Shown piece after piece: positions 22,895 through 27,282 of a DNA stretch of 64,000 bases. Origin of the DNA: Oceaniglobus trochenteri (lineage in GTDB: Bacteria; Pseudomonadota; Alphaproteobacteria; Rhodobacterales; Rhodobacteraceae); contig NZ_JACNMM010000003.1 of NCBI RefSeq assembly GCF_020529025.1, forward strand, positions 434,001-498,000, in the 5' to 3' direction. Numbering within the stretch: the stretch's first letter is position 1; each line of letters begins with the position of its first letter. The translations under genes were made by a program, and so were the position numbers. The notes below the pieces were generated by a model. It had not been told where the DNA came from. It was given only the letters and a program-made list of their open reading frames with translations, and searched no databases.

Positions 22895-24204
22895 TCCGTT
22901 TCGTCTTCACCCTGGCCCTCGCGACGCTGGCGGCCCTTCCCCTGCGGGCCGAGGTCGATATCCAGAAGGTCACATCGCCCGGCGGCATCACCGCCTGGCT
23001 GGTCGAGGAACGTTCGATCCCCTTCACCGCGCTGGAAATCCGGTTCAAGGGCGGCGCGTCGCTGGATCGCGCGGGCAAGCGCGGATCGGTCAACCTGATG
23101 ATGGGGCTGCTTGAGGAAGGCACCGGCGATCTGGATGCCCAGGGCTTTGCCGCCGCGCGGGAATCGCTGGCTGCCAGCTACGGTTTCGATGCCTGGAATG
23201 ACGCGGTGTCGGTGTCGGCGCAGTTCCTGACCGAGAACCGCGATGATGCGGTGGCCCTGCTGCGCCGGGCGCTGGTCGAACCCAGCTTCGACCAGGTGGC
23301 GCTGGACAGGGTGCGCGAACAGGTGCTGTCCAGCCTGCGCTCGGACGCCACCGATCCGGGCAGCATCGCCTCGGAAACCGCGTCTCGGCTGGCCTGGGGC
23401 GATCATCCCTATGGATCGGATGCCAGTGGCACCATCGAATCGGTCAACGCCCTGACCCGCGAGGATATCGTGCAGGCCCATGACGACGTGCTGGTGCGTG
23501 ACCGGCTGTTCGTGGGCGCGGTGGGCGACATCACCCCCGAGGCACTGGGCAAGCTGCTGGACGACCTGCTGGGCGGGTTGCCGCAATCGGGCGCGCCGCT
23601 GGCGGGGCCCGCCGCCTATCTGGGCGAACCGGGGGTGACGGTGGTGCCCTTTGACACGCCGCAATCGGTGATCGTCTTCGGCCATGAGGGCATCGCCCGC
23701 GACGACCCCGATTTCTTTCCGGCCTTCGTGGTGAACCAGATCTTCGGCGGCGGCAACTTCTCGTCCCGCCTGATGACCGAGGTGCGCGAAAAGCGCGGGT
23801 TGACCTATGGCATCGGCAGCTATCTGGCGACCTACGACAACGGCCATGCCCTGCTGGGGCAGGCCTCGACCGCGAACGAAAGGGCCGGTGAGACGGTGCA
23901 GGTCGTGCGCGACGAATGGGCCCGTCTGGCGAAGGAAGGCGTGACGCAGGAAGAACTGGACGCCGCCAAGACCTATCTGACCGGCGCCTATCCGCTGCGC
24001 TTTGACGGCAACGGGCGCATCGCCGCGCAACTGGTGGGCATGCAGATGGAGGGGCTGGGGCTGGACTACATCGTCACGCGCAACGACATGGTGAATGCCG
24101 TGACGCTGGAGGATGCCAACAGGGTGGCAAAACGGCTGTACCGGCCCGAGGATCTGCACTTTGTCATAGTCGGCCGCCCCGAGGGTGTGACCGCCACCCG
24201 GTAG
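22891..24204 (+). CDS. M16 family protein lacking the zinc motif (partner subunit)
   Basis: 437 residues with a signal peptide ([13 protein letters not shown]). Where the active paralogue has HYLEH, this protein has the sequence [16 protein letters not shown], with no HxxEH, so it should be catalytically inactive. It retains the C-terminal glycine-rich and arginine/tyrosine region ([16 protein letters not shown]) that contacts substrate in the alpha-type subunit. By analogy with mitochondrial processing peptidase and paired bacterial enzymes, it probably forms a heterodimer with the preceding gene product. Confidence 0.93.
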
Positions 24205-24253
24205 AAGATTTGGCCATGGTCGAATCAAAGGTGGCCATGCTAGGGCTTGTGGC

Positions 24254-26122
24254 ATGGCAGTGACACAACCCCACATGAGCGATAACCACCCCGTCATCCG
24301 ACAGCTGGACGACGCCGCGATAAACCGCATCGCGGCGGGCGAGGTGGTGGAGCGCCCGGCCTCGGCGGTCAAGGAACTGGTGGAAAACGCGCTGGATGCC
24401 GGCGCGCGGCGCATCGAGGTGGCCTATGCCGACGGCGGCAAGAGCCTGATCCGCGTCACCGACGACGGCTGCGGCATCGACGCCGAGGCGCTGCCCCTGG
24501 CGCTTTCGCGCCATGCCACCAGCAAGATCGACGGCTCGGATCTTCTGAACATCCACACCTTCGGGTTTCGCGGCGAGGCGCTGCCGTCGCTGGGGGCCGT
24601 GGGGCGGCTGACGCTGACCTCGCGCGTGGCGGGGGGCATGGGGGCCTGCCTGTCGGTCAGCGGCGGCGTGGCCAGCGCGGTGCGCCCGGCCGCCCTGGGC
24701 GGCGGTACGGTGGCCGAGCTGCGCGATCTGTTCCATGCCACGCCCGCCCGCCTGAAGTTCATGCGCAGCGACCGGGCCGAGGCACAGGCCATCGGCGACG
24801 TGGTAAAACGCCTGGCCATGGCGGAACCCTTCGTCAGTTTCGTGCTGCGCGACGTGACGGGAGGCGGCGAGGGGCGCGTGGTGCTGCGGGCCGATGCCGG
24901 CACCGGCGATCTGTTCGATGCGTTGCACGGACGGCTGGCGCGGATCATCGGCAGTGATTTCGCGCAGAACGCGCTGCGGATCGAGGCCGAGCGTGAGGGG
25001 CTGAGCCTGACCGGCTATGCCGCGCTGCCCACCTATTCGCGCGGGTCGGCCAGCACGCAGTATCTGTTCGTCAACGGCCGCCCGGTGCGCGACAAGCTTC
25101 TGCATGGTGCGCTGCGCGGGGCCTACCAGGATTTCCTGAGCCGCGAGAGGCATCCGGCGGCGGTGCTGTTCCTCGACTGCGATCCGCAACTGGTGGATGT
25201 GAACGTGCATCCGGCCAAATCCGAGGTGCGGTTCCGCGATCCGGGTGTGGCGCGCGGCCTGATCGTTTCGGGCCTGCGCCATGCGCTGGCCGGGGCGGGG
25301 CACCGGGCCTCGACCACGGTGGCGGGGGCGACGCTGGGTGCCATGCGCTCCGAGGTGGTGGAGCCGCGGGTCTATCAGATGGACCGGCCCTCGGCGGGGG
25401 CGCTGCGCCAGTCCCACGCGGCCCAGGCGCCGGGCTTCGGAGAGGCGCTGCCGGTGATGGCGCGGGCCTCATCGCTCCCTGACGGTCGCTCTTCGCAGGA
25501 GGGCGCACCGCTTGAAGAGCGACCGTCAGGGAGCGATGAGAGCTTCCCGTTGGGTGCGGCGCGCGGGCAGGTGCACGAGAATTACATCATCGCCCAGACC
25601 GCCGACGGCATGGTCATCGTCGATCAGCACGCCGCACACGAACGGCTGGTCTATGAAAAGCTGAAACGCCAGATGGCCGAGAACGGCGTGGCGGCGCAGG
25701 CGCTGCTGATCCCCGAGATCGTCGAACTTTCCGAGGGCGACGCGGCGCGGCTGATGGAACTGGCCGAGGAATTCGCCCGCCTTGGCCTTGGCATCGAACC
25801 TTTCGGTGGCGGCGCCGTGGCGGTGCGCGAGACGCCTGCCATCCTTGGCACCGTCAACGCCGAGGCGATGCTGCGCGACATCCTGGACGAGTTGGACGAT
25901 CTGGGATCGAGCGCCATGGTCCAGACCCGGATCGAGGCCGTGCTGAGCCGGATCGCCTGTCACGGGTCCATCCGCTCGGGCCGCTGGATGCGCCCCGAAG
26001 AGATGAACGCCCTGCTGCGCGAGATGGAGGCCACCCCCCATTCCGGCCAGTGCAACCACGGCCGCCCCACCTACGTCGAGTTGAAGCTGGCGGATATCGA
26101 GCGGTTGTTCGGGCGGACATGA
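24254..26122 (+). CDS. mutL: DNA mismatch repair protein MutL, endonuclease type
   Basis: 622 residues. The GHKL ATPase motifs are NALDAGA, DDGCGID and [10 protein letters not shown]. The C-terminal domain has the metal-binding endonuclease motif [12 protein letters not shown] (DQHAx2Ex4E) starting at Asp457, so this MutL should nick DNA itself, unlike the E. coli protein. A variable linker (about residues 330-435) separates the domains; in it, codons 405-429 are formed by a perfect 27-bp inverted repeat. Starts at ATG 24254 or 24275; neither has a strong ribosome site. Overlaps rmuC by ATGA. Confidence 0.97.
25468..25540. repeat. Perfect 27-bp inverted repeat with 19-base loop inside mutL
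   Basis: Left arm 25468-25494 (begins CTCATCGCTCCCTGACGGTC) and right arm 25514-25540 (begins GAAGAGCGACCGTCAGGGAG) are exact reverse complements across all 27 positions. The loop is 25495-25513. The element stays in the mutL frame and encodes a serine-, glutamate- and proline-rich stretch ([11 protein letters not shown] and so on) in the interdomain linker. Neither flank extends the pairing. No other copy was found by eye in this window. No transposase or target-site duplication is visible. Confidence 0.97.
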
Positions 26123-27282
26123 TCACCCTTGGCGACCGGAGCTTCGATCCCGGCGATCCCGTGACCCTGGCCCTTGTGGTGGCGGCCTTGCTGGCCCTTC
26201 TGGTCGTGATCCTGGTGGTGGTGACCCTGCGGCGCGCCGGGCGCACGGCCCGGATGCTGGCCCCCCTGGCCCAGCAGCTTCAGTACATGAACCAGCGGGT
26301 GCAGGCCCTGGGCGATGGCCAGCAACAGCTGAGCGGCAATCTGACCGGCGTGGCCGAGGCCCAGGCCGCCGCCCAGGCCCGCACGCTGCACCTGATGGAA
26401 ACCCGGCTGGCCGAAGTGGGCGAGCGGATGGATCGGAACCTCACCGGATCGGCCACCCGCACGGCGCAATCCCTGGGCGAATTGCAGCAGCGCCTGAAGA
26501 CGATCGACCGCGCCCAGGCGAATATCGAGAAGCTGTCGGGCAATGTCCTGTCGTTGCAGGATATCCTGAGCAACAAGCAGACCCGCGGTGCCTTTGGCGA
26601 AATCCAGTTGCACGACATCGTCGGCAAGGCGCTGCCCAGCGACAGTTTCACCTGGCAGGCCACGCTTTCCAACGGGCGGCGGGCCGATTGCCTGATCCAC
26701 CTTCCCAAACCGCCCGGCCCCATCGTGATCGACAGCAAGTTCCCGCTGGATGCCTATGAGGCGCTGCGCCGGGCCGAAAGCGACCATGAGAAACGCGCGG
26801 CCGTGGCCGGAATGCGCACGGCGGTGCGCGCCCATGTCCGGGCGATCTCGGAGAAATACATCCTTGAGGGCGAAACCGCCGACGGGGCGCTGATGTTCCT
26901 GCCCTCGGAAGCGGTCTATGCCGAGCTGCACGCCAATTTCCCCGAACTGGTGCGCGAGGGTTTCGATGCCCGGGTCTGGATCGTGTCGCCCACCACCTGC
27001 ATGGCGACCCTGAACACCATGCGCGCCATCCTGAAGGACGCGCGCATGCGCGAACAGGCCGGGGCAATCCGCCGGACCCTGAAGCAGTTGCACCGCGACA
27101 TGGAGCTGGTGGTGGGCCGGGTCGAGAAGCTGAACACCCATTTCAACCAGGCCCGGGCCGATCTTGACGGCATCGGCACGGCAGCTGAACGGGCGGGCAA
27201 GCGGGCGGCGCGGCTGGACAATTTCGACTTCGAGGAGGTCGAGCCGGCCACCATCCTGCCGGGCGGTGACGGGCGCGCCTGA
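26119..27282 (+). CDS. rmuC: DNA recombination protein RmuC
   Basis: 387 residues. An N-terminal transmembrane anchor ([21 protein letters not shown]) is followed by a long coiled coil rich in Gln and Ala (about residues 55-165). The nuclease-like domain carries [28 protein letters not shown] and [14 protein letters not shown], all RmuC signatures. RmuC proteins limit inversions at short repeats in E. coli. Cotranscribed with mutL, start ATG within the mutL stop (ATGA); this linkage of two genome-stability genes may be functional. Confidence 0.95.

Follow-up and report, generated by a model that had tools for sequence, protein, structure and literature searches.

Rickettsia palindromic elements (RPEs) were reportedly described by Ogata et al. 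in 2000. As set out in PMC2229807, they are palindromic repeats that lie between genes and are also fused in frame into genes for conserved proteins. A second class, the REPs tagged with GTAG or CGTC, mostly has convergent or same-direction genes as neighbours and lies less than 20 bp from their 3' ends according to PMC3733652, with some copies inside ORFs, many of them for DNA synthesis or repair (uvrA, DNA polymerase I, recBCD). E. coli REPs no more than 15 nt from a stop codon are reported to lower translation of the upstream gene (PMC12306157). Imperfect inverted repeats can also be made perfect by quasipalindrome correction, in which one arm is copied via template switching (PMC8794818; PMC7202029). 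The palindrome family that we report here has seemingly not been described: the REP and palindrome literature covered, mainly open-access, names no Rhodobacter or Roseobacter repeats, and term searches of PMC3733652, PMC12306157 and PMC2267715 met none.

The locus that led to this family lies in mutL, a gene of 622 codons at 24254..26122 on the + strand of the window, the whole stretch of 64,000 nucleotides of DNA that was analysed. Its inverted repeat consists of two perfect 27-nt arms, the left (CTCATCGCTCCCTGACGGTCGCTCTTC) at 25468..25494 and the right, the exact reverse complement of the left, at 25514..25540, both given on the + strand and separated by a 19-nt loop (25495..25513). The repeat forms codons 405-429, counting from the ATG at 24254, and leaves the reading frame intact. 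Because the N-terminal Pfam domains of MutL run to residue 345, where DNA_mis_repair ends, and resume with MutL_C from 438, the hairpin falls within the linker. Coordinates, codons and Pfam limits therefore agree with the preliminary description, which had reported a perfect in-frame inverted repeat in the mutL linker, far beyond chance in arm length and very stable when folded. The latter two points held as well. When perfect arms in the window were ranked by length, with loops of up to 100 nt, the first three measured 27, 14 and 12 nt, and the maximal arm in 60 dinucleotide shuffles of the window was 11-15 nt, at or below 15 in all 60. The computed fold of the hairpin reached -69.4 kcal/mol as RNA (z -8.8) and -39 kcal/mol as DNA (z -10.5). 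An AlphaFold2 model of MutL, made from a 22-row alignment, was poor (mean pLDDT 42.9) and gave no reliable picture of the linker. No terminator-like site was present in window positions 24100-26300. At 26119-26122 mutL and rmuC overlap by ATGA, an arrangement that makes translational coupling between them probable.

An exact search with a 16-nt core found just the two mutL arms in the focal genome (G000), which would imply a unique palindrome; this idea was dropped when related palindromes appeared elsewhere in the same genome once mismatches were allowed. We built a covariance model, R1, from four intergenic copies of the focal genome, excluding the copy in mutL. R1 identified six loci in that genome, mutL among them (the weakest was C27:173527, E 0.012), and within the window it scored mutL at E 2.7e-9, ahead of an unrelated sequence at E 0.2. 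A broader model, R2, was derived from an alignment (A3) of 22 copies from 8 genomes, which included an amidase copy from G002, a genome of the same genus, and left out both the focal and the G002 mutL copies. R2 matched the mutL genes of the focal genome at E 2.2e-11 and of G002 at E 2.7e-6. By the limits of this model the focal element occupies 25464..25544 (25464-25543 on the - strand, 25466-25544 on the + strand), corresponding to 24 protein letters in the mutL frame. Relatives of the palindrome, sought in the focal genome and in other Rhodobacteraceae, were thus found with both models, and the mutL palindrome belongs to a family of interspersed palindromic repeats, low in copy number, in Rhodobacteraceae.

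The shared structure of the family is evident in A3, where 84.5% of cells are paired, compared with 80.4% after shuffling of columns (0/500 as high) and merely 36-54% when the structure is slid along the alignment. Thirty cells are changed on both sides of a pair, a number that none of 500 shuffles reached; the count of pairs with such changes, nine, is not conclusive, as 53 of 500 column shuffles attained it. Two mismatches recur across genera at fixed positions, each in roughly half of the 22 copies (loci L061-L180), C-C at columns 11/66 (12 rows) and G-G at columns 24/53 (10 rows), and give the otherwise palindromic element a direction. The unit is mostly 55-75 bp long. Perfect and imperfect copies exist side by side in the family, nine of 127 having perfect arms of at least 27 nt; the mutL copy is the sole one with such arms known in the focal genome. 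Two loci with arm-like sequence, L010 and L013, did not reach E 0.01 with R2 and were dropped. Rfam searches of nine loci gave no match at gathering score at the elements, and we took hits to mir-8515 in L092 (50.4 bits, gathering 100) and to snoR9 in L081 (E 0.46) as chance.

At E 0.001, R1 matched at least 10 of 198 family genomes, and at E 1e-4, R2 matched at least 25 of 394 Rhodobacteraceae genomes, the focal genome being included in both counts. The first-look candidates scored per genome numbered at most 150, 27, 13 or 22, usually out of thousands, so that copy numbers are lower bounds; in 11 genomes for which more candidates were scored, carriers gave at least 11 to 69 rows, one copy usually yielding one row per strand. 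Within the genus, R1 at E 0.05 matched two of six members, G000 and G002, and no copies were seen in G001, G003, G004 and G005 among the few first-look candidates scored. R2 matched nothing beyond the focal genome among the first-look candidates scored in a class sample of 240 genomes, and the plasmid collection gave no match to the family. Within the searches made, these palindromes were met solely in Rhodobacteraceae, unlike RPEs. The examined set comprised 127 copies fetched from 23 genomes, which is less than all found; copies from G097, G195 and G269, and some rows from the search of the 11 genomes, were left out.

Most copies sit directly behind stop codons. Using gene calls from our own codon-based script, a non-standard caller, we found seven of the 127 copies inside called ORFs and the other 120 outside them. 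Both neighbours were called for 111 copies, 71 of them between tandem, 36 between convergent and 4 between divergent genes; for a further five, all from G355, no neighbour was called. A neighbour's 3' end was faced by 109 copies, at a median distance of 4 nt and within 10 nt in 82 of them (slight overlaps counted), and a 5' end by 81, at a median of 65 nt and within 10 nt in eight. Fifty of the 71 tandem copies lay within 10 nt of the stop, where uniform placement in the spacer would predict 19.1, and in 26 of the 36 convergent cases both stops were no more than 20 nt away. One example, L062, follows an EF-Tu gene (by Pfam), and L061, which lies at a contig edge elsewhere in the assembly, shares its flank. 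This post-stop position is typical of the family without defining it, and the focal copy, being inside mutL, deviates from it. The tails contained at least five T in 8 nt in 4 of 124 cases and thus lack the T-tract of an intrinsic terminator. Together with the placement behind stops, this points to a role in RNA at the 3' end other than intrinsic termination; the intergenic copies probably act as an RNA hairpin that protects or defines the mRNA end. E. coli REPs occupy the same post-stop position and differ in sequence (PMC12306157). In L092 (G093; 1115-1573) a copy starts 4 nt past the 3' end of a match to RNase P RNA, which shows that placement at a 3' end extends beyond protein genes.

PF01797, which we take to be the RAYT domain, was not found in seven of nine carrier genomes tested (G000, G002, G091, G140, G219, G308 and G330); G093 and G355 gave partial matches above the cut-off, that of G355 containing a stop. 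The family is therefore usually without a RAYT-type transposase, unlike GTAG REPs and REPINs. Compared with the GTAG/CGTC REPs as described in PMC3733652, it is similar in its position at gene ends and in having intragenic copies, and different in its lack of a constant GTAG or CGTC tag and of a CCA tail. In place of an unpaired tag and a short tail, the ends of the element read GCTCNTCG...CGANGAGC and are paired in A3. Its stem is also far longer, with 24-25 model pairs as against 8-9 bp in the CGTC repeats (PMC3733652).

Six copies reside in clear proteins: in mutL (G000, G002), in a gene for an Amidase_2 protein (G002, G093), in rsmE (G002) and in uvrA (G141). Clean insertion could be demonstrated for the last three genes by comparison with solved relatives or orthologues. 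UvrA of G141 has 23 positions that are lacking in 2r6f, between UvrA_inter (to 239) and UvrA_DNA-bind (from 313), and the closest solved relative of RsmE, 4j3c, is without 24 positions of the G002 protein. In the amidase the copy follows the Amidase_2 domain, and the segment concerned has 83 (G002) and 79 (G093) residues in the carriers versus 64-71 in 20 of 22 aligned non-carriers (24 of 30 loci were recovered in this alignment); no copy was detected in the orthologue of the focal genome. The non-carriers L322 (G219, 81 residues) and L329 (G012, 89 residues) have other inserts in the same linker, including PPPPPSPTRGEEGALPD in L322. These inserts gave no R2 match at E 0.1 and possibly belong to another repeat class that uses the same amidase site.

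The suggestion in the preliminary description that the mutL palindrome is an in-frame element of the Rickettsia kind is accordingly well founded, with relatives in this and other Rhodobacteraceae and, besides mutL, three further genes (uvrA, rsmE, the amidase) that carry it in frame. The two families are alike by description, each being intergenic and also in frame within conserved proteins. They differ in that RPEs measure 105-146 bp, as given in PMC2229807, whereas the Rhodobacteraceae unit is mostly 55-75 bp and mostly post-stop.

All six protein copies are read at codon offset 2 and yield SSxPxGxSS...GPQGxDE-like peptides. Open frames at offsets 0, 1 and 2 were present in 157, 175 and 189 of 254 strand-copies, respectively. 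Given four to five independent events, such a coincidence of frame has by simple thirds a probability of about 1/27 to 1/81. Reading the family consensus through the code, we found that the other offsets encode less polar peptides, which points to survival of the tolerable frame, and selective survival of this kind is the simplest explanation for the shared offset. Lengths were a multiple of three in five of the six, the exception being the rsmE copy (100 nt by our own delimitation). A seventh intra-ORF copy, L194, had offset 1 and was dismissed, its ORF being weak (85 aa).

The mutL gene of G002 carries its copy at the same site and in the same frame as the focal gene, with imperfect arms. 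Among 110 sources, some genomes being represented twice, R2 at E<0.01 matched within mutL just the window and the G002 locus (L034); L056 scored E 0.11 there. Across 23 mutL loci from other carriers R2 had no match in the gene; L259 has a copy outside it. Alignment of the mutL linkers of relatives, in which 18 of 30 loci were recovered, gave 108-126 residues for 16 non-carriers, as against 123 and 127 for the carriers. Linker length varies in all relatives, and clean insertion is not demonstrated for mutL; for neither mutL nor the amidase did the protein-level alignments reveal a recognisable empty site bearing the target duplication expected of a MITE. Relatives' linkers, to which the preliminary description had pointed, therefore supplied a same-site copy in G002 and no clean empty site. 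Its proposal of a recent insertion survives in part: the matching position and frame of the G002 copy speak against recency of the insert, whereas the perfection of the focal arms does look recent.

The two mutL copies differ mainly in their right arms. In G002, exact complementarity fails at 10 of 27 positions, and at two mismatched positions (11/66 and 24/53) the G002 right arm keeps the commonest family states, while the focal arm does not. Compared codon-wise and without gaps, the left arms of G000 and G002 differ at 3 of 27 positions and the right arms at 10 of 27, although the latter number would be smaller if a shift were allowed at positions 13-15. At eight of the ten right-arm differences the focal base is one that could equally form a pair with the left arm of G002. 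One pair is changed on both sides between the two copies, but the 10 of 27 non-complementary positions in G002 leave maintenance of the pairing not established. All three left-arm differences are synonymous; two follow the letters usual in the other copies of each species, and at the third the G002 rows are divided (3 of 6). The copies have the peptide SSLPDGRSS in common, and both contain a dinucleotide GA (TGACGG) that is absent from the five other G000 and six other G002 rows aligned and that also occurs in two G140 rows. From the shared GA, the arm states of G002 and the right-arm differences, we infer one older insertion in which the focal right arm was rewritten from the left.

These observations suggest the following history. 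The usual copy is an imperfect hairpin of about 55-75 bp in the spacer of a convergent or tandem gene pair, just past a stop codon; occasional copies occupy tolerant protein linkers, where the clear cases use the offset giving a short polar peptide. One copy was probably present in the mutL linker before the focal species and G002 split. In the focal lineage its right arm was then probably overwritten by the reverse complement of the left, most simply through template switching at a quasipalindrome during replication, with perfect 27-bp arms as the outcome. Such rewriting would resemble quasipalindrome correction as presented in PMC8794818, with one orthologue pair as the basis in the mutL case. 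At the protein level the insert would probably be a near-neutral linker extension. We put the probability of this account as a whole, from family copy and older linker insertion to template-switch rewriting and near-neutrality, at roughly 0.8. Counting against it are the variable linker lengths noted above and the four of six genus members without detected copies (few candidates having been scored), so that ancestral presence requires either losses or a carrier subclade; nor did any transposase partner of the family come to light.

The synonymous and partly species-typical differences in the left arms could instead mean that two elements inserted independently at one permissive mutL site, in G000 and in G002, the focal copy being young and hence perfect. 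Reuse of a site is conceivable, as the amidase site is occupied in two genera while the G000 orthologue has no detected copy, and perfect copies do occur elsewhere (9 of 127). Independent insertion nevertheless sits poorly with the GA found in both mutL copies and unseen in the further rows of either species, five from G000 and six from G002 (for all its presence in two G140 rows), with the common frame and SSLPDGRSS peptide, and with left-arm differences that are synonymous at all three positions. Moreover, the other copies detected in G000 have no perfect arm of 18 nt or longer, which means that no perfect donor is known in the focal genome. We consider two insertions unlikely and prefer a single older insertion with later rewriting of the right arm.

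A hairpin of this stability, in a gene that overlaps rmuC by ATGA so that a structure might affect both, could also be a dedicated regulatory RNA of mutL that evolved in place and acts by attenuation, RNase III cleavage or ribosome pausing. Its membership in a dispersed family argues to the contrary, as do the restriction of in-mutL matches (E<0.01) to the window and L034 among the 110 sources (L056 at E 0.11), the lack of any in the 23 mutL loci of other carriers, and the 10 of 27 non-complementary positions in G002; we judge such a function very improbable. Less credible still is a palindrome due to chance or codon bias, or a fold-back artefact of assembly. The focal genome is a draft of 33 contigs, which would leave room for an artefact, but this view is already contradicted by the shuffles, none of which exceeded 15 nt, by recognition of the site with R1 and R2, both built without the mutL copy, by the intact frame and by occupation of the same site in a species of the same genus.

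Read as an older insertion with a rewritten arm, the mutL site, with imperfect arms in one species and perfect arms in another, offers a clean test case for template-switch rewriting. The family adds a group of short palindromes to a large, well-sequenced set of bacteria and one more lineage, outside Rickettsia, in which palindromic repeats have colonised proteins in frame, and the use of a single frame by copies in unrelated proteins suggests that which insertions survive follows a simple rule. A far bolder scheme, to which we give little credence, would have the element spread and stay palindromic through replicative template switching with no transposase; its copies in mutL and uvrA would then be no accident, and the mutL hairpin would serve as a slippage or deletion hotspot that now and then breaks and restores mismatch repair, a self-referential mutability switch. 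Repair genes make up two of the four host genes (mutL, uvrA), a number too small to test. These two hosts recall the list of REP-bearing ORFs given in PMC3733652.
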